64,000 nucleotides of DNA, taken from Phenylobacterium deserti (GTDB lineage Bacteria; Pseudomonadota; Alphaproteobacteria; Caulobacterales; Caulobacteraceae). The notes beneath the pieces are model-generated. The model was not told the DNA's origin. It did not search any database and was given only the letters and a program-made list of their open reading frames with translations. Position numbers and translations under genes: made by a program. This document shows positions 11,151 through 19,905 of this stretch, piece after piece; within the stretch, counting starts at the first letter, position 1, and each line of letters opens with the position of its first letter. Location of the stretch: contig CAMCIK010000002.1 in NCBI GenBank assembly GCA_945874825.1, positions 1 through 64,000 on the forward strand, given 5' to 3'.

Positions 11151-11552
11151 CTACCAGGCGCCTGCCTCGCGCAGGCGACGGGCGAGGTCGTCCGGAATCC
11201 CCTCTCCGCCGGCCTCGTCGAGATCCGGAGGCGCGTCGTCTGGATTGAGGTAGCGCCAGCCCTGGAAGGCCCGACGGGGCGTCGGCGCCACGCGCAGGAT
11301 CCGCGGCTCCAGGTCGATTCGGCAGTGACTCTCCCCGCCTGCCTCCACCCGGGCGATGGACAGTATGCGTTGGCGGCAGAGAATCAGGCCCCGGAAGATC
11401 CGGTAGAGCGACCCGCCGTCCAGCAGTTCGTCCACACGCTTGGGCGCCATCCGGGTATGCAGTGGCCAGGGATCGGGGCTGTTCCCGTGCCAGGCCACCA
11501 GGTCCTCGATGGTGTCGCAGCCGACGCAGAGCCGGATCATGTGCAGGGTCAC
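11151..11552 (-). CDS. DUF1489 family protein
   Basis: The 133-residue soluble product matches the alphaproteobacterial DUF1489 family in its opening (LHMIRLCVGCDTIEDLVAWH) and in the RMAPKRVDELLDGGSLYRIFRG and FQGWRYL blocks. The family has no established function. The GTG at 11550-11552 overlaps the mccA stop as GTGA and is preferred over an upstream in-frame ATG because it gives the usual family N-terminus. It is the last gene of the mccB-hydratase-mccA operon, but the family also occurs without these genes, so a role in leucine catabolism is not implied. Confidence 0.82.
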   Translation of the reverse strand: MTLHMIRLCVGCDTIEDLVAWHGNSPDPWPLHTRMAPKRVDELLDGGSLYRIFRGLILCRQRILSIARVEAGGESHCRIDLEPRILRVAPTPRRAFQGWRYLNPDDAPPDLDEAGGEGIPDDLARRLREAGAW

Positions 11553-13429
11553 GGCGCCTCGCTCCGCACCCACGCCAGGGCCTCGCCCTCCCGGACCTGG
11601 TCGCCCACGGCGGCCGACAGGCCCTCGACCACGCCATCGAAGGGCGCGATCAGGCCGTGCTCCATCTTCATCGCCTCGATGACCACCAGGACGTCGCCCC
11701 GGGCGACCCGGGCGCCTTCGGCGACCGGAACGGCGACGACCCGGCCCGGCAGGGGGGCGACGACGGATCCGTCACCGCCCGCACCTGCGCCCACTTCAGG
11801 GTCCGGAGGATCGGCGGTGAAGCGGAATGCGGTCCCCGACTCGAAGAGCACCAGGCCTTCGCCGGTATCGAGAAGGTCCGCCTCCACGTCCTCCCCGTCG
11901 AGGTGGACGACCAGGGGCTGACCGTCGCACCAGAGGCCAACGGTCGCCCGGGGCGGCGCGTTGAGGCGGAAGCCCACCAGTCCCGCCGACGGGGCGCTGG
12001 CGCCTTCCGCGGCCAGGGCTCCCAGGGCCTCGGCGGCGGCCCTGGCGAGGTTGGGCGAGGGTCCGGCGGGGGTCGCCAGTCGGTCTATCCGGGCTTCGAT
12101 GAAGTCGGTGTCGATCCGCCCGGTCAGGAAGTCGGGGTCGTCCAGGCACTTCGCCAGGAAGGCCGCGTTGGTCTGCAGGGGCCAGGTCTCGACCCCGGCG
12201 CAGGCCTCGGCCAGGACCTCCGTCGCCCCCTCCCGGGTCGGCGCCCAGGCGATCAGCTTGGCGATGAGGGAATCGTAGTGCGGCCCCACCTCGTCGCCGG
12301 CCTCGACGCCGGAATCAATCCGCACGTCCTCGGGCAGGCGCAGGTGATCCAGCCGGCCAATAGACGGGATGAAGCCCCGCTCGGGAACCTCTGCGCAGAG
12401 CCGCGCCTCCACGGCCCAGCCGTCCAGGGCGATTTGGTCCTGGGACAGGGGCAGGGGCTCGCCGGCGGCGACCCGGAACTGCCATTCCACCAGGTCCACC
12501 CCGGTGACAGCCTCGGTCACAGGATGCTCGACCTGCAGCCGCGTGTTCATCTCCATGAACCAGATGCGATCGGCGCGCAGACCGTCGCGGGCATCGGCGA
12601 TGAACTCCACCGTACCCGCGCCGACATAGTCCACCGCCCGCGCAGCGGCGAGGGCCGCAGCGCAAACCGCGGCGCGCACCTCATCGGTCATGCCCGGGGC
12701 GGGCGCCTCCTCGATCACCTTCTGGCGGCGGCGTTGCAGGGAGCAGTCGCGTTCGAACAGGTGGACGAGGCCGCCATGGGCGTCGCCGAACACCTGCACC
12801 TCGATGTGGCGGGGGGCCTCGATGCAGCGTTCCAGCAGGACCCTGTCGTCCCCGAAGGCGGCCAGGGCCTCCCGTCGGCAGGCGGCCAGGGCGGCGGCAA
12901 AGCCGGCACCATCGTCGACCCGTCGGATGCCGCGACCACCGCCCCCCGCCGCCGCCTTGATCAGGACCGGCCAGCCTAGGTCCCGGGCGGCGGCGAAGAG
13001 GGTCGCCTCGCGACCGTCATCCCCCTGCCAGCCGGGTGTCACCGGAACGCCGGCGGCGATCATCCGTTCCCGGGCGGAGTCCTTCAGTCCCATGGCCCGG
13101 ATGGCCCCGGGCGAGGGCCCGATCCAGATCAGGCCCGCCGCCTGCACCGCCTCCGCGAAGGCCGCGGTCTCGGACAGGAAGCCGTAGCCCGGATGCACGG
13201 CCTCGGCCCCGCTCTCCAGCGCTGCGGCGACCAGGTCGGGAATGGACAGGTAGCTCTCCGTCGCCGGGGCCGGGCCGATGCGCACGGCCCGGTCAGCATC
13301 CCGCACGTGGGCAGAGTCGAGGTCGGCATCCGAGCAAACGGCCACCGTCTCGATTCCAAGCTGGCGGGCGGTACGGAAGATCCGGCGGGCGATCTCGCCC
13401 CGGTTGGCGACAAGGACGGAGCGGAACAC
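11549..13429 (-). CDS. mccA: 3-methylcrotonyl-CoA carboxylase, biotin-carrying alpha subunit
   Basis: The 626-residue biotin-dependent carboxylase subunit has a biotin carboxylase domain (about 1-445) starting VLVANRGEIARRIFRTARQL, with the glycine-rich ATP loop AAAGGGGRG near 165. A linking region follows, then a C-terminal biotinyl domain whose EAMKMEHG motif places the biotinylated lysine at K588. Together with the mccB product it carboxylates 3-methylcrotonyl-CoA in leucine degradation. The neighbours mccB and an AUH/LiuC-like hydratase separate it from propionyl- or acetyl-CoA carboxylase alpha subunits. GTG start, nine bases after the hydratase gene. Confidence 0.92.
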   Translation of the reverse strand: MFRSVLVANRGEIARRIFRTARQLGIETVAVCSDADLDSAHVRDADRAVRIGPAPATESYLSIPDLVAAALESGAEAVHPGYGFLSETAAFAEAVQAAGLIWIGPSPGAIRAMGLKDSARERMIAAGVPVTPGWQGDDGREATLFAAARDLGWPVLIKAAAGGGGRGIRRVDDGAGFAAALAACRREALAAFGDDRVLLERCIEAPRHIEVQVFGDAHGGLVHLFERDCSLQRRRQKVIEEAPAPGMTDEVRAAVCAAALAAARAVDYVGAGTVEFIADARDGLRADRIWFMEMNTRLQVEHPVTEAVTGVDLVEWQFRVAAGEPLPLSQDQIALDGWAVEARLCAEVPERGFIPSIGRLDHLRLPEDVRIDSGVEAGDEVGPHYDSLIAKLIAWAPTREGATEVLAEACAGVETWPLQTNAAFLAKCLDDPDFLTGRIDTDFIEARIDRLATPAGPSPNLARAAAEALGALAAEGASAPSAGLVGFRLNAPPRATVGLWCDGQPLVVHLDGEDVEADLLDTGEGLVLFESGTAFRFTADPPDPEVGAGAGGDGSVVAPLPGRVVAVPVAEGARVARGDVLVVIEAMKMEHGLIAPFDGVVEGLSAAVGDQVREGEALAWVRSEAP

Positions 13430-13437
13430 GGGTTGGG

Positions 13438-14283
13438 TCAGCCCTGCCCAGCCCAGGAGGGCCGCTGGCGGGCGAGGAAGGCGGCCACGCCCTCGCGGCC
13501 CTCTTCGCTGACCCGGGCCTGGGCGATCCGGCGGGCGGTGTCCTCCATGAGGGCCTGGTCGATCTGGCGCCAGGCGACGGCGTCCACCAGGGCCTTGGAG
13601 GCGGCGATGGCGCCCGGGGCGCAGGCCATGGCCTCACCAGCGATACGGTCGGCAGCGGTGGCAAGGTCTGCGGCGTCCTCGACCAGCTCGGAAACCAGGC
13701 CCAGGCGCAGGGCCTCGTCGGCGTCGAAGGCTCGGGCCGAGGCGAACAGGCCCCGGGAGGCCCGGGGGCCGATGGCGGCCACGATGTAGGGGCTGATGGT
13801 GGCGGCGATCAGTCCCAGCCTGGCCTCGGAGAAACCGAACTTCGCAGACCGTTCGGCCACGGCCTGGTCGCAGGCGGCGGCAAGGCCGCAGCCCCCGCCC
13901 CAGGCACCGCCCTGTACCAGGGCCACCGTCAGGGCCGGGATGTCCCAGAGGGCCTTGAGCATGCGCGCCAGGCCCATGGCATCCTCGCGGTTCTCGGCCT
14001 CGGTCCAATGGGCGGCGTCGCGCATCCAGTTCAGATCGGCCCCGGCGGAGAAGACCGTGCCAGCACCGCGCAGGAAGACCACCCGCACGCCCTCGGCGGC
14101 CTGCAGGGTCTCGAAGGTCTCGCGCAGGGCGCCGATCAGCTCGGCGTTGAAACTGTTGCGCGCCTCCGGACGGTTCAGGGTGACCACGGCCACCCCTTCC
14201 TGTGTGGTATCCAGGCGCACCAGGTCGGAGCTGGCGTCGCTGTCGACGCCCTCGACCAGGGGATCTGCGATCGGGTTGGTCAT
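13438..14283 (-). CDS. Enoyl-CoA hydratase, probable methylglutaconyl-CoA hydratase (LiuC type)
   Basis: The 281-residue crotonase-fold protein has the oxyanion-hole motifs FSAGADLNWM (about 80) and GGAWGGGCGLAAACD (about 125), and the AKFGFSEARLGLIAATISPYIV block carrying the catalytic glutamate region. Its place between mccB and mccA indicates hydration of 3-methylglutaconyl-CoA to HMG-CoA in leucine breakdown. The substrate is inferred from context since crotonase sequences alone are ambiguous. An N-terminal stretch of about 20 residues before the domain is poorly conserved, so the start at 14281-14283 is slightly uncertain. Confidence 0.88.
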   Translation of the reverse strand: MTNPIADPLVEGVDSDASSDLVRLDTTQEGVAVVTLNRPEARNSFNAELIGALRETFETLQAAEGVRVVFLRGAGTVFSAGADLNWMRDAAHWTEAENREDAMGLARMLKALWDIPALTVALVQGGAWGGGCGLAAACDQAVAERSAKFGFSEARLGLIAATISPYIVAAIGPRASRGLFASARAFDADEALRLGLVSELVEDAADLATAADRIAGEAMACAPGAIAASKALVDAVAWRQIDQALMEDTARRIAQARVSEEGREGVAAFLARQRPSWAGQG

Positions 14284-14308
14284 TAAGGGGCTCCGGGTTG
14301 GGGGTCGG

Positions 14309-15931
14309 TCACATTCGGAAGACGCCGAAGCGCGTCGGCGCGACGGGGGCGTTCAGGGCGGCGGACAGGGACAGGCCCAGCACGTCGCGGGTCTGGGCGG
14401 GGTCGATGATCCCGTCGTCCCAGAGGCGGGCGGTGGCGAAGTAGGGATCGCCTTCGGCCTCGTAGCGCTCGCGGACCGGCGCCTTGAAGGCCTCTTCCTC
14501 ATCGGCGGGCCAGTCGCCCCCCCGGGCCTCGATCCCGTCCCGGCGGATCGTTGCCAGGACGCTGGCAGCCTGCTCGCCGCCCATGACCGAGATTCGGGCG
14601 TTGGGCCAGCTCCAGAGGAAGCGCGGAGAATAGGCCCGGCCGCACATGCCGTAGTTGCCCGCCCCGAATGAGCCGCCGATCAGGACGGTCAGCTTGGGCA
14701 CCTCGGCGCAGGCCACGGCGGTGACCAGCTTGGCGCCGTCCCGGGCGATACCGCCGGCCTCATAGCGGCCGCCGACCATGAAGCCCGAGATGTTCTGGAG
14801 GAAGAGGAGGGGGATGCCCCTCTGGCAGGCCAGCTCGATGAAGTGGGCACCCTTGAGAGCGCTCTCCGAGAACAGGATGCCGTTATTGGCGAGGATGGCC
14901 ACGGGATAGCCCCAGATGCGGGCAAAGCCGCAGACCAGGGTCTGGCCGTAGAGGGCCTTGAATTCCTCGAAGACCGAGCCGTCGACGATCCGGGCGATCA
15001 GCTCGCGCACGTCGTAGGGCGCGCGGACATCCTGGGGGATGACCCCATGGATCTCCTCGGGGTCGAACAGGGGCGGGCGGGGATCGGCCAGGACCGGGCC
15101 TTCGGGCCGGCGGGTGTTCAGGCCGGCTACGATGCGGCGGACGATGGCCAGGGCGTGCAGGTCGTCCTCGGCCACGTGATCCACAACACCCGAGCGGCGG
15201 CCGTGGACGTCAGCGCCACCGAGGTCCGAAGCGGAGATGATCTCGCCCGTGGCCGCCTTCACCAGGGGCGGGCCGCCCAGGAAGATGGTGCCCTGGCTCT
15301 CCGGCCCGGTCCCGCGAACGATGACGGTCTCGTCGGACATGGCCGGGACGTAGGCGCCCCCCGCCGTGCACGAGCCCATGACGCAGGCGATCTGGGCGAT
15401 CCCGCGGGCACTCATGCGGGCCTGGTTGAAGAAGATGCGCCCGAAGTGATCCCGGTCGGGGAAGACCTCGGCCTGGTGCGGCAGGTTGGCCCCGCCGGAG
15501 TCCACCAGGTAGACGCAGGGCAGGTTGTTCTGCTCGGCGATCTCCTGTGCCCGCAGGTGTTTCTTCACGGTCAGGGGGAAGTAGGCGCCACCCTTCACCG
15601 TGGCATCGTTGGCGAGGATCATCACCTCGCGCCCGCTGACGCGGCCGATCCCGGCGATCAGACCGGCGGCGGGAGCCTCGTCATCGTAGAGGCCGAAGGC
15701 CGTCAGGGCACCGATCTCCAGGAAGGGCGCGCCGGGGTCCAGCAGCCCCTCAACCCGGTCCCGGGGCAGGAGCTTGCCGCGGGCCGCGTGCCGACGACGG
15801 CTGTCCTCGGGCCCTCCCGCCGCCGCCAGGGCAGTGCGCTCCCGCAGGCGGGCGGCGAGGCCGAGGTTGACCTCCGCATTGGCGCGGAAGGCCGCCGAGG
15901 CCGGGTCGAGGGCGGACTTCAGGACGGGCAT
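14309..15931 (-). CDS. mccB: 3-methylcrotonyl-CoA carboxylase, carboxyltransferase beta subunit
   Basis: The 540-residue product is an acyl-CoA carboxyltransferase of the MccB type. It shows [21 protein letters not shown] near 57-77, [25 protein letters not shown], the [17 protein letters not shown] block and a C-terminal [24 protein letters not shown] motif. It transfers carboxylate from biotin on MccA to 3-methylcrotonyl-CoA. The ATG at 15929-15931 gives the normal length; the open frame continues much farther upstream, but only through the antisense of the patatin gene. It is first in the operon, with 25 bases to the hydratase gene. Confidence 0.94.
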
Positions 15932-16001
15932 GCACAAGGCATAGCCGGGGCCCGGCCCGGCGGCTAGTCCGTGCTGACCGCAGGCGCGGGCGCGTTTCTC
16001 A

Positions 16002-17774
16002 TTGTCGCAGAAGCGGGATAGTCTTCCGGACGTGCCCTCACCGACCGGACCCGCCCTTACCCAGCTCTTCGAGACCGCCCGCCAGACCGGCTCGGGACGG
16101 TGGTGGTGCCTGCCGGGCGGAAGCGACCTTTTTCGTCCCGGCGAACCGGCGGATGAACTGCATTTCCTGAGGGCCGGGAGGCTGGGCGCCTTCCGCATCG
16201 AGGACCATGAAGAGCCGCGCTTCCTGGGCGTCGTCCGTCCTGGCGAGCCAGCCGGCGAAATGAGCCTGATCGCCGGAAGCCTGCACTCGGGCCAGCTGAC
16301 CGCCCTCAGGGATTCCGAAATCGTCTCCGTTGACCGGGACGCCTTCTTCGAGGCCTGCGACGCCGATCCGGACATCATGGTGGACGTGGCGCGGCAGATG
16401 GTTGGCCGCGCCCGGAACGCCGGGCGGCCCACTGCCCTGGTCGAGCCCGCGGTTTTCGGCTTTGTCGCCGCCGGGCCGATGGACGGCCTGCGGGATCTGG
16501 TGGAGTCCCTCGCCGCGCGCATACGGGCGACCGGCTATTCCGTCGCTGTCGCCGGGGTCGAGGCCCAGGACGAAGAGTCCTCCTGGTTCTCGAACCTCGA
16601 GCACGGGGTCGACTACGTCCTCTACATGGCAAATCTGGAGGAACAGGCCTGGGCGGCCAAGATCGCCCGCCAGGTTGACCGGCTCTTCCGCGTCGGGCGA
16701 GGCGATTACCCGCCACCGCCCGGATCCGCCGCCGCGACGCCGGCGGCGCTTGGCCTTGGTGCTGAACTGGTCCTCGTCCAGCCGGCGGGTATCCGCAGGC
16801 CAAGGGGCAGCGAGGCCTGGATGACGGCGACCGCGGCGGCGGGGCTGACCCATATCCGCCGGGGCGACCCCGGGGACCTCGAACGGCTGGTCCGGCGGCT
16901 GACCGGCAGGGCCGTGGGCCTGGTCCTGTCGGGCGGCGGCGCCCGGGCCTACGCCCACGTCGGGGTCATCCGCGCCTTCAGGGAGCGGGGGGTGCCCATC
17001 GACTTTGTCGGCGGCGCGTCCATGGGCGCGGTCATCGCCGCTGGCCTGGCCCTCGGCTGGGACCTGGACGAAATGGACCGTCGGATCCGCCTCGCCTTCG
17101 TGGACTCCAGTCCTGTGGATGACATCGCCTTCCCCATGCTCGCCATGATCCGGGGTGGAAAGGTCGCCCGCAGGCTCGAGGAGAACTTCGGCGACGTGCA
17201 GTTCGCCGACCTCTGGCGGCCCTGCTTCTGCGTCTCGTCCAACCTGACCACGGGCGTACCGCAGGTGCACAGGCGGGGCCTTGTCCGGGCGGCCCTGCGC
17301 GCCTCGATCTCCCTACCCGGCCTCCTGCCTCCCGCCACCCAGGGCCAGAATGTCCTGGTGGACGGTGCCGTCCTGAAGAACCTGCCCGTGGACGTCATGC
17401 GCAGCAGCCTTTCCGGGCCTATCATCGGGGTCGACGTCAGTCGTGGCCTGTCCATCACCGCCGCCGACATTGTCCGGCCGCGCTCCATGCTGCGCTGGAT
17501 CCTCTCGGGCCAGTGGCGCAAGGGACCGCCCATCGTCTCCCTTCTGATCCGGGCCGCCACCGTATCCTCTGGCCGCGACCTGGCCGCGGATCGGGAGGCG
17601 GCGGACGTCCTCATTGTGCCCGAGCTGGCCGGGGTCGAGATCCGGGACTGGAGCGCCTATGACCCTGCCGTGGCTGCTGGCTACGCCGCCGCCATCGCCG
17701 CGCTCGACCACCTGGACCGCCCGCTGGAAGACCTGCGCAGGCGCACGCCCCAGCCGGTCCCCGCATCCCCCTGA
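16002..17774 (+). CDS. Cyclic-nucleotide-binding-domain patatin-like phospholipase
   Basis: The product is up to 590 residues. An N-terminal cNMP-binding domain (about 20-140: [33 protein letters not shown]) is followed by a linker and a patatin domain (about 305-480). The patatin domain has the oxyanion motif [16 protein letters not shown], nucleophile S340 in GASMG and D454 in VDGA, the Ser-Asp dyad of patatin/neuropathy-target-esterase hydrolases. It likely hydrolyses (lyso)phospholipids; whether it binds a cyclic nucleotide is open. Start choice is weak: TTG 16002 or GTG 16032, neither with a strong Shine-Dalgarno. It is divergent from mccB. Confidence 0.87.
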
Positions 17775-17842
17775 CAGGACAAAAAAGCCAGCTTGTCAGA
17801 CCCGGCGAAGCAGGCACACGCTGGTGTCCTTGTCCAACCCTT

Positions 17843-17859
17843 GAAAGGAGGTGATCCAG
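17843..17859 (+). promoter_or_regulatory. Exceptionally long Shine-Dalgarno (17 nt complementary to the 16S rRNA 3' end)
   Basis: GAAAGGAGGTGATCCAG is the exact complement of the usual 16S rRNA 3' terminus (recalled sequence CTGGATCACCTCCTTTC). The GGAGG core (17847-17851) is seven bases before the GTG at 17859-17861, an ideal spacing. Ordinary sites in this window match four to six bases. Confidence 0.8.
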
Positions 17860-17921
17860 TGTCTCACCGTTATCTCTCGGAAGTCGCTGCTGGATTTATG
17901 ACCTCCGCGCTCGCGCGGTAG
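17859..17921 (+). CDS. 20-residue leader peptide
   Basis: GTG-initiated mini-ORF encoding MSHRYLSEVA followed by AGFMTSALAR, ending with TAG at 17919-17921. It is preceded by the strongest ribosome binding site in the window. It has no run of one amino acid, so a classical amino-acid-starvation attenuator is not obvious. Its codons 11-16 (17889-17906) contain CTGGAT and ACCTCC, which can fold back on the ribosome site. The codons for ALAR form a small CCGCG-CTCG-CGCGG hairpin (17905-17918). A peptide is likely made; its function, if any beyond placing ribosomes, is unknown. Confidence 0.6.
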   Translation: MSHRYLSEVAAGFMTSALAR

Positions 17922-17970
17922 CATTCTCCCATCGTCCTTGTGCGAAGCTGTGACTTCCACGATCGGTGTC

Positions 17971-18004
17971 GGGCGGCTCGGGAAACCGGGCCGCCCGTTT
18001 CGTT
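17971..18004 (+). terminator. Intrinsic terminator between the mini-ORF and the O-methyltransferase gene
   Basis: GGGCGGC at 17971-17977 pairs with GCCGCCC at 17990-17996 around a partly paired loop, followed by GTTTCGTTTT. It lies downstream of the mini-ORF and 50 bases upstream of the methyltransferase ATG, where it could act as a conditional terminator. Confidence 0.85.
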
Positions 18005-18053
18005 TTGGGGCCTGGGTGCGGCTGTAGCCGGCGGGTAGAGCGGAGGACAAGGA

Positions 18054-18728
18054 ATGCAGGACGAGGACCAAGCCTGGACCGCGGTGGATGCCTACTTCGC
18101 TGAGAGGCTCATCGGAAAGGACCCCTTGCGGTCCGAAATCCTGGAGACGAACGCCGCCCAAGGCCTTCCTCCCCACGACGTCTCACCCCTGCAAGGCCGG
18201 TTCCTGTCCCTTCTGGTCAAGGCCACGGGTGCCCGTCGCATCCTGGAGATCGGGACCCTGGGCGGGGTCTCGGCGACCTGGATGGCGCAAGCCCTGCCGG
18301 CCGGGGGCCAGCTGATCTCCCTGGAGGTGTCCCCGGATTACGCTGCCCTGGCCCGTCAGAGCCTGGACCGCGCGGGGATCGGCGACCGGGTTCAGATCCT
18401 TGTCGGTCCAGCCCTGGAGTCCCTGGCCCGCCTCGCCGCGGACGCCGGCCCGGCGTTTGACCTCGTCTTCATCGATGCCGACAAGCCGAACAATCCCGCC
18501 TATCTGGATTGGGCGCTGAAGCTGACACGGCCTGGCGGCCTTATCATCGGCGACAATGTGGTTCGCGGCGGCGCCGTTCTGGAGTCCGACTCCGAAGATG
18601 ATCGAGTCCGGGGCGTCCGGACCTTCACCGAGCGTCTCGGACGCGAACCGCGCCTGTTCTCAACCGCCCTGCAGACCGTCGGTGAAAAGGGATGGGACGG
18701 CATGACCCTGTCCTTCGTCGAGACATAG
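18054..18728 (+). CDS. SAM-dependent O-methyltransferase (CCoAOMT/COMT-like family)
   Basis: The 224-residue product has the class I methyltransferase fold of the caffeoyl-CoA O-methyltransferase-like family. Motif I is ARRILEIGTLGGVSATWMA (about 60-78), followed by GQLISLEVSPDYAALARQSL, the metal-binding-type FDLVFIDADKPNNPAYLDWAL (about 140) and GLIIGDNVVRGG. Bacterial members methylate catechols or related hydroxyls; the natural substrate cannot be told from sequence. ATG at 18054 with GGAGG seven bases upstream. It lies just after the leader RNA and terminator, which may regulate it. Confidence 0.85.
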   Translation: MQDEDQAWTAVDAYFAERLIGKDPLRSEILETNAAQGLPPHDVSPLQGRFLSLLVKATGARRILEIGTLGGVSATWMAQALPAGGQLISLEVSPDYAALARQSLDRAGIGDRVQILVGPALESLARLAADAGPAFDLVFIDADKPNNPAYLDWALKLTRPGGLIIGDNVVRGGAVLESDSEDDRVRGVRTFTERLGREPRLFSTALQTVGEKGWDGMTLSFVET

Positions 18729-18747
18729 ACCCGCGCTCAGAGTCGCC

Positions 18748-19905
18748 TCAGGCGCCGATCAGCTCCCGGCCGATCAGGTAGCGGCGGATCTCGTTGGTGC
18801 CCGCGCCGATGTCGTAGAGCTTGGCGTCGCGCAGCAGGCGCTCGGCGGGGAAGTCGCGGGTGTAGCCCGCGCCGCCCAGGGCCTGGATCGCCTCCAGCGC
18901 GACCTTCACGGCGTTTTCCGAGGCCAGGAGGATGGCGCCGGCGGCATCGTGGCGGGTCGCCTGGCCCGCGTCGCAGGCCCGCGCCACGGCATAGACATAG
19001 GCCCGGGCCGAGTTCAGGGCGACGTACATGTCCGCCACCTTGGCCTGGATGAGCTGGAAGGCGCCGATGGCCTGGCCAAACTGGCGGCGCTCGCGGACAT
19101 AGGGCACGACCAGGTCCAGGCAGGCCTGCATGATGCCCAGTGGACCCCCCGCCAGCACCGCCCGCTCGTAGTCCAGCCCGCTCATCAGGACGCCGACGCC
19201 GCTGTTCACCGGCCCCATGACGCTCTCCTCGGGAACCTCGCAGTCCTGGAAGACCAGCTCTGCCGTGTCGGAGCCCCGCATGCCCATCTTGTCGAGTTTC
19301 GGACTGGTGGAGAAGCCGGCGAAACCGCGCTCGATCAGGAAGGCGGTGATGCCCCGGGGGCCGGCGTCTGGATCTGTGCGGGCATAGACCACCAGGACGT
19401 CAGCGTGGGGGCCGTTGGTGATCCAGAACTTGGTTCCGTTGAGGACATAGCGGTCGCCGCGCCGCTCGGCGCGCAGGCGCATGGAGACGACGTCCGAGCC
19501 CGACCCCGCCTCGCTCATGGCCAGGGCGCCGACATGCTCACCCGAGATCAGCCGGGGCAGATGGCGCGCCTTCTGGGACTCGGTTCCCCAGCGGCGGATC
19601 TGGTTCACGCAGAGGTTGGAATGGGCACCGTAGGACAGGCCCACCGAGGCCGAGGCCCTGGAGATCTCCTCCATGGCGACCACGTGCTCGAGATAGCCCA
19701 GGCCGGCACCGCCATCCTCGGCCTCCACCGTGAGGCCCAGGAGGCCCAGGGCGCCCATCTGTGGCCAGAGGTCGCGGGGGAAGGCGTTGTCCCGGTCGAT
19801 GGCCGCCGCGCGCGGGGCGATGTGGTCAGCGGCAAAGCGGGCGACGGAGGCCCGCAGGGCGTCGGTGGTCTCGCCCAGGGCGAAGTCGAATTCAGGCTGG
19901 CTCAT
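18748..19905 (-). CDS. ivd: Isovaleryl-CoA dehydrogenase
   Basis: This 385-residue flavoprotein oxidises isovaleryl-CoA to 3-methylcrotonyl-CoA, directly upstream of methylcrotonyl-CoA carboxylase in leucine catabolism. Acyl-CoA dehydrogenase blocks are clear: [48 protein letters not shown] and [12 protein letters not shown]. The catalytic base is E247 in [16 protein letters not shown], the special position used by isovaleryl-CoA dehydrogenases, while the usual C-terminal glutamate is replaced ([12 protein letters not shown]). That pair of features makes the specificity call firm. The gene is separated from mccB by about 2.8 kb of unrelated plus-strand genes. Confidence 0.95.

Follow-up and report, generated by a model that had tools for sequence, protein, structure and literature searches.

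The window, that is, the whole 64,000-nucleotide (nt) stretch of DNA that was analysed (Phenylobacterium deserti, assembly GCA_945874825.1, contig CAMCIK010000002.1, positions 1 to 64,000), contained on its forward strand a short RNA gene made up of an extended Shine-Dalgarno (SD) sequence, an open reading frame (ORF) of 20 codons, hereafter the mini-ORF, and an intrinsic terminator. The SD sequence lies within GAAAGGAGGTGATCCAG (17843-17859), a 17-nt complement of the alphaproteobacterial 16S 3' end. The original prediction, made from the letters of the DNA, had described this complement ahead of a GTG, the 20-codon ORF and the terminator, and all three were confirmed in the sequence. The complement is real over its 17 nt, but its last bases take in the G of the start codon and conservation was confined to the first 15 nt, GAAAGGAGGTGATCC, which are followed by one free base and then by the start codon. 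The features of the locus were as follows.

17817..17822, forward strand: putative -10 element, CACGCT, placed by eye from relatives
17829..17842, forward strand: putative transcript start with an A/C-rich leader, the exact start of transcription being presumed
17843..17857, forward strand: extended SD sequence, complementary to the 16S 3' end (the conserved part of a match that reaches 17859)
17859..17921, forward strand: mini-ORF of 20 codons, GTG start (17859-17861) to TAG stop (17919-17921), VSHRYLSEVAAGFMTSALAR, recognised by conservation of start and stop
17865..17874, forward strand: left arm of a long-range stem (CACCG, TT bulge, ATC), from covariation in relatives
17890..17906, forward strand: stretch resembling the 16S 3' end (CTGGAT...ACCTCC), which can pair with the SD, from sequence
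17961..17968, forward strand: right arm of the long-range stem, GATCGGTG, from covariation in relatives
17970..18006, forward strand: intrinsic terminator hairpin (17970-17997) with a T-rich tail, from sequence and folding

Extended ribosome-binding site and identity of the RNA

The 25 bases ahead of the mini-ORF start held a 16-nt match to the 16S complement, whereas the longest match upstream of the 45 window ORFs of at least 150 amino acids, whose starts were uncurated, was 3-6 nt; this bears out the claim that ordinary genes here match the 16S far less. The sequence GGATCACCTCCTTTC occurred as a single exact copy in the 2.56-Mb genome, at the mini-ORF locus. Because of this single copy and the far shorter matches at other ORFs, a chance origin of the complement was excluded. 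The predicted duplex with the 16S tail reached -28.0 kcal/mol for 15 nt and -32.4 kcal/mol for 17 nt, against -8.7 kcal/mol for GGAGG alone. The 16S 3' end itself was absent from the draft genome of the window at up to one mismatch, and may be missing or masked there; TGCGGCTGGATCACCTCCTTTC (up to two mismatches) was matched in two of 60 genomes of the genus, exactly in G036 and with one mismatch in G042, both in a 16S context.

Counterparts of the putative -10 element lay at about the same position in relatives (e.g. CATATT, CTATAT, CACCTT and CAGGCT), and an A/C-rich stretch preceded the 16S complement in 224 sequences. The GC-rich terminator hairpin was separated from the end of the ORF by 48 bases and followed by TTTCGTTTT; among the 235 distinct relatives, 219 had a terminator-like hairpin. 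Where the original prediction had placed a 5' hairpin (17777-17835), the fold of 17770-18010 predicted a small hairpin near 17771-17799; it sits upstream of the putative -10 element and was not counted as part of the RNA.

Three pattern searches showed the distribution of the site, each with a reversed-pattern control of 0. An exact 19-mer was present in 19 of 385 genomes of the class, a 24-mer with up to three mismatches in 59 of the 385 (60 places), and AAGGAGGTGATCCN[AGT]TGTC in 62 of 398 genomes of the phylum, by row count 62 of the 135 of the class and 0 of the 263 others. These prevalences are lower bounds, as they come from pattern searches. In a further search, with GTG fixed, 80 titles of at least 119 matches included Bradyrhizobium, Methylobacterium, Bosea, Microvirga, Rhodobacteraceae, Acetobacteraceae and Caulobacteraceae, together with one Acidobacteriaceae bin (L161); the site in that bin begins a long ORF and probably does not belong to the mini-ORF RNA. 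At the 60 places, which were found by similarity (up to three mismatches in 24) so that their conservation is conditional on that, the 16S-complementary columns 1-15 held 15 mismatches in 900 cells and columns 16-24 held 95 in 540. Six of the 15 mismatches were A to G at column 12, where a G-U pair is still possible. Plasmids gave no match to the window RNA or to the f177 RNA, and phage records gave two weak matches only, both over the terminator.

The original prediction knew of no leader class of this design, a statement that needs correction in view of the covariance search. In a focused search of 401 bases, RF01867 (caulobacter sRNA CC2171, where sRNA stands for small RNA) spanned 17835-17997 with 65.1 bits (E 2.5e-13; cut-off 75), covering model positions 1-159, while no RF01867 match was obtained across the whole window at the gathering threshold. 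The CC2171 5' core GAAAGGAGGTGATCCAGTGTCTCA was exact in the window, and its outer stem and terminal hairpin were also present, the stem as CACCG/CGGTG against CATTG/CAATG and others in relatives. The window copy differs from CC2171 in falling under the cut-off, and CC2171 is filed by Rfam as an sRNA. By this alignment, the window RNA belongs to a wider alphaproteobacterial RNA group as a divergent homologue of CC2171 that stays under the threshold. RF01867 was matched in 204 of 249 genomes of the bacterial family, in 146 of them above the cut-off, and among 14 named control genomes in Caulobacter vibrioides only. At the gathering threshold, six of the 26 loci scanned against Rfam matched RF01867 with 76-91.5 bits (L067, L073, a Methylobacterium bin, a Rhizobium bin, Microvirga and an Acetobacteraceae bin); the representatives of Rhodobacteraceae, Bradyrhizobium, f17 and f177, among others of the 26, had no Rfam family at the site at that threshold, and in this they differ from CC2171.

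Landt is said to have found CC2171 in 2008 as a short transcript in Caulobacter. The literature search returned nothing joining CC2171 with Caulobacter and nothing for six mini-ORF peptide strings. In the accessible part of its source, MH_s33 of Mesorhizobium huakuii is listed as RF01867 with a sequenced product of 215 nt, and an excerpt of the Rfam 15 paper gives one extra covarying pair for CC2171. No 16S-complementary mini-ORF RNA was described for Alphaproteobacteria in the literature surveyed, mostly titles and abstract openings, where RNA spellings of the SD matched only a study on YbeY and 16S processing.

Start, stop and peptide of the mini-ORF

At the 60 places, the start codon (columns 17-19) was GTG in 31, ATG in 26, TTG in 3 and CTG in 0, and column 16, directly before it, took all four bases. 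The start-codon evidence is that of this set alone, since the other patterns fixed GTG or excluded CTG. Frame 0 met a stop before the terminator in all of the sites with a found terminator (219/219), with a length of 12-36 codons in 214, against 191 and 193 closed in the other two frames, with 78 and 75 of that length. This frame-closure set held 271 records (235 distinct), of which 16 without a found terminator were omitted from the terminator-based counts; records with short flanks had already been removed, and a small number of sites with a longer ORF, possibly not the mini-ORF RNA, were retained. The stop position was fixed in 76/76 sequences across six groups defined by peptide motif, all three stop codons occurring in five of the six. 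These groups are narrow, and near relatives differ in length (15 codons in L264 and 21 in some Caulobacter); a viral-contig copy of the Bradyrhizobium form (L295), outside the motif groups, was two codons longer. The start and stop kept in relatives argue that the predicted mini-ORF is real.

An ordinary base-pairing sRNA, in which the conserved 5' region would pair with mRNAs and the ORF would be incidental or a minor second function, is an unlikely explanation without being a far-fetched one. It agrees with the Rfam listing, with an independent unit that has its own terminator, and with the strong conservation, within the limits of the search, of TGTCT from the start codon onward. However, the exchange of A, G and T without C at the start, the fixed stops with mixed codons and the 219/219 closure are unexpected in an untranslated RNA, and the best-conserved stretch is a ribosome-binding site rather than an anti-SD seed.

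For frame 0, the ten sets of more than three sequences gave ratios of non-synonymous to synonymous polymorphism (pN/pS) of 0.54-1.98; all sets were defined in part by length, and shifted frames gave similar values. The variable columns were similarly numerous at the three codon positions in most sets. In nine of the eleven sets the ratio was 0.74-1.98, with little sign of purifying selection on the peptide in those nine. Lower values were obtained for CAULO22 (0.54, 15 Caulobacter sequences) and PHENYLO21 (0.21, 3 sequences), and the peptide may be constrained in such lineages. In Rhodobacteraceae (28 loci, 27 distinct ORFs), the last three codons before the stop varied widely, with 18, 10 and 10 different codons in the 27 ORFs. 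Earlier codons of these ORFs were AGA at codon 3 (26/27), ATA at codon 5 (19/27), TTG at codon 6 (26/27) and AGA at codon 8 (20/27), codons that are unusual for GC-rich genomes. Because start and stop were kept while pN/pS was mostly near 1, the act of translation, and not the peptide, seems to be under selection.

A microprotein gene proper, with an SD of unusual strength and a peptide that acts, is improbable. The kept start and stop and the lower ratios of CAULO22 and PHENYLO21 speak for it, as do four loci (L205, L208, L288 and L289) in which the same or nearly the same SD, a 15-nt complement with one mismatch in L205, stands ahead of secreted-looking ORFs of 55-58 amino acids. Against it are the ratios of the other nine sets, the similar variability of the codon positions in most sets, peptides that differ between families in length and sequence, and the CTGGAT motif, which in the window clade lies in a different reading frame from its relatives. 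A sponge for alphaproteobacterial sRNAs with seeds like the 16S tail (e.g. SisA-D of Caulobacter) could pair through GGAGGTG; such a sponge, which would have no need for the flanking GAAA and ATCC, a start codon or an in-frame stop, is quite improbable, and CC2171 goes unmentioned in the available parts of the literature on these sRNAs.

RNA structure and a possible response to free 30S subunits

The long-range (outer) stem joins bases shortly after the start codon to the stretch just before the terminator. Its variants (CATTG/CAATG, CATAG/CTATG, CATGG/CCATG and CATGA/TCATG, with CACCG/CGGTG in the window) showed compensatory changes, so that relatives display both the conserved ribosome site and the covarying stem that the original prediction had looked to them for. 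In a structure-free MAFFT alignment, 1158 of 1469 stem cells were paired, against 905 ± 15 (maximum 955) in 2000 permutations of the arms among sequences that ignored kinship; all of the first five pairs were formed in 126 of the 219 alignment rows. Single-sequence ensembles were computed for 118 of the 219 sequences, where the mean outer-stem probability with the SD blocked was 0.84, against 0.31 in shuffles.

The ensembles differed by type. In the commonest type (SH), the SD and start were more open than in shuffles and the outer-stem probability was 0.84 (shuffles 0.22); in the SS type the SD was likewise more open than in shuffles. The outer stem was present in the consensus folds of 21 Caulobacter and 40 other SH sequences. 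In Rhodobacteraceae, opening the SD cost 12.0 kcal/mol, against 6.6 kcal/mol in shuffles, and the outer stem was formed only with the SD blocked (0.01 to 0.58); in the consensus fold of 25 sequences, where 973 of 1021 cells were paired, both the SD (AAGGAGGTG with CATCTCCTT) and the start codon are concealed. Freeing the SD of the window RNA was predicted to cost 5.8 kcal/mol. In the best fold of this RNA the SD pairs locally, the probability of pairing between the SD and the ACCTCC region (17890..17906) being only 0.03-0.04, and the outer stem has a pair probability of about 0.2 unconstrained and forms in the best fold once the SD is held single-stranded. The fold was more stable than shuffles (z -2.9), part of this stability coming from the terminator.

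A shared mimic of the 16S tail that sequesters the SD was rejected as a general feature, being clear only for Rhodobacteraceae (score 20.9 against 15.7 shuffled, 19/26 at p<0.1) and Bradyrhizobium (19.7 against 15.1, 5/8). The corresponding values were 16.1 against 14.9 (29/135) for the SH type, 16.9 against 15.1 (3/10) for f17, 15.8 against 15.4 (2/9) for the SS type and 16.7 against 15.2 (7/31) for the others.

The preferred reading, held tentatively but regarded as plausible, is that a free-standing transcript of about 170 nt captures 30S subunits and that its state tracks 30S availability. The SD would catch a 30S subunit by forming as many as 15 base pairs. Entry of the subunit would be gated by the outer stem, a role that in Rhodobacteraceae and Bradyrhizobium would fall to structure concealing the SD and start. 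Initiation, passage over about 20 codons and termination would then refold, protect or expose the RNA, whose state would thereby follow the availability of 30S subunits. For capture and for translation the support is that of sequence evolution; the retention of the 15-nt complement in distant families suggests selection for very tight 30S capture, as originally proposed. The broader proposal, that an alphaproteobacterial RNA device reads the free 30S pool through a lineage-specific gate and that a meaningless ORF of fixed length converts capture into an RNA state, is rather doubtful.

Several points weigh against capture and gating as set out here. A 17-nt duplex reaching into the start codon is incompatible with normal initiation in the P site. 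The cost of opening the SD equalled that of shuffles overall (6.9 against 7.2 kcal/mol, 118 sequences), and in the SH type the SD was more open than in shuffles (4.7 against 7.6 kcal/mol). The outer stem was nearly absent in the free RNA of Rhodobacteraceae (0.01) and Bradyrhizobium (0.02), below the values of their shuffles (0.22 and 0.25), and the consensus of 19 genus sequences lacks the outer stem and instead joins GGAGGT to ACCTCC within the ORF. For the stem, the register of the majority was adopted once that of the window had proved one column off, and to this are added the neglect of kinship in the permutations and the selection of the 60 places by similarity. The Caulobacter ORFs at pN/pS 0.54 also count here, as do the 45 of 249 family genomes without an RF01867 match, a number obtained with stricter filters by which weak matches were lost.

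If the broader proposal of a device reading the free 30S pool is true, the RNA would be a sensor of ribosome availability that depends on no downstream gene or peptide. An sRNA family of unknown function is now seen to carry a near-complete complement of the 16S tail before an ORF whose boundaries appear to be selected, which makes it a concrete and testable candidate for the sensing or buffering of free ribosomal subunits by an RNA. It is also a caution that an RNA classed as non-coding may be translated, with translation itself as the purpose.

Genomic surroundings and comparison with known systems

The neighbourhood survey covered 193 loci, a few of which were duplicates of one contig. A cluster of patatin/cNMP-binding proteins lay upstream in 39 loci and a converging acyl-CoA dehydrogenase cluster downstream in 37, the window being included in both; the presence of one or the other is common to many Caulobacteraceae loci and is a further likeness to CC2171. 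No downstream gene was common to the clades among the 193 loci. Because neighbouring genes differ among clades, the mini-ORF RNA is, by its surroundings, a stand-alone unit, in line with the independent small RNA that was one of the two original suggestions.

The other suggestion, a leader controlling the downstream O-methyltransferase by attenuation, is very improbable. The gene does start at 18054 on the same strand, about 50 bases past the terminator, but it was the next gene in only 5 of the 193 loci, from four genomes of the window clade (L003 and L153 being the same contig), and a strong terminator ends the RNA; since neighbours differ by clade, control in cis was rejected. The idea that the 17 matching nt are a displaced piece of the 16S 3' end or an error of assembly has a negligible probability and was refuted by conservation, as the similarity ends where rRNA would go on, the reversed-pattern control was 0, and the same context, with a similar leader and terminator, recurs in many families.

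Neighbours named by eye in other clades were arfB-like (8 loci), RNase R-like (4), RF3-like (7, divergent) and queuosine-transporter-like (16) genes. The arfB-, prfC- and rnr-like genes, which belong to ribosome rescue, termination and RNA decay, adjoin the RNA in three clades: Rhodobacteraceae including L092 and L107 (8 loci), the L117 group with Microvirga (7) and the L100 group with Bosea/Methylobacterium (4). This may be coincidence. In the window, the genes at 11549-19905 resemble a leucine/isovalerate breakdown cluster (carboxylase subunits, enoyl-CoA hydratase and acyl-CoA dehydrogenase, the carboxylase and hydratase recognised by eye), with the patatin gene, the RNA and the O-methyltransferase interposed in it.

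Mobile elements were also seen at the RNA gene. In G048, a genome of the same genus, about 3.4 kb of inserted DNA (L282:1400-5100) breaks up the gene and encodes a C5-DNA methylase, a HEPN protein and a GmrSD_N protein (Pfam). On one side of the insert is a complete RNA of a different subtype, and on the other a 3' remnant of the window-type RNA. The RNA gene there has the appearance of a site at which a defence island inserted. Three of the six viral contigs with the site had an integrase-like gene 142-337 bases away: a phage integrase in L297, a weak phage-integrase match below the Pfam cut-off in L296, and a serine recombinase in L299, whose contig ends just past the ORF of the RNA. The RNA gene is probably an attachment site, like tRNA and tmRNA genes. 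A further viral contig (L298:10075) carried the 15-nt 16S complement ahead of an ORF of 71 amino acids.

Among known systems, the extended-SD mRNAs of Staphylococcus aureus (PMC13009471) share pairing with the 16S tail extended toward the start codon and the use of GUG and UUG starts. They are mRNAs of ordinary genes, whereas the RNA described here is a free-standing alphaproteobacterial mini-ORF RNA with 15 conserved nt, and the available part of that report yielded no 15-nt case.

Other comparisons bear on the mechanism. In rpsO mRNA, a folded RNA together with ribosomal protein S15 entraps the 30S subunit before accommodation; this entrapment serves as a working analogy for the gate, but the present RNA is not related to it by family, involves no protein gene and has no known ligand. 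The bar minigenes of phage lambda combine a strong SD with a tiny ORF of about two codons, and the Rhodobacteraceae forms, which often carry AGA, ATA and TTG, recall them; the bar minigenes are phage-borne, whereas the mini-ORFs are mostly 14-36 codons long, chromosomal and structured. Dual-function sRNAs such as SgrS/SgrT are likewise small terminated transcripts that are also translated, but their peptide is conserved, while little selection was seen on the peptide of the mini-ORF.
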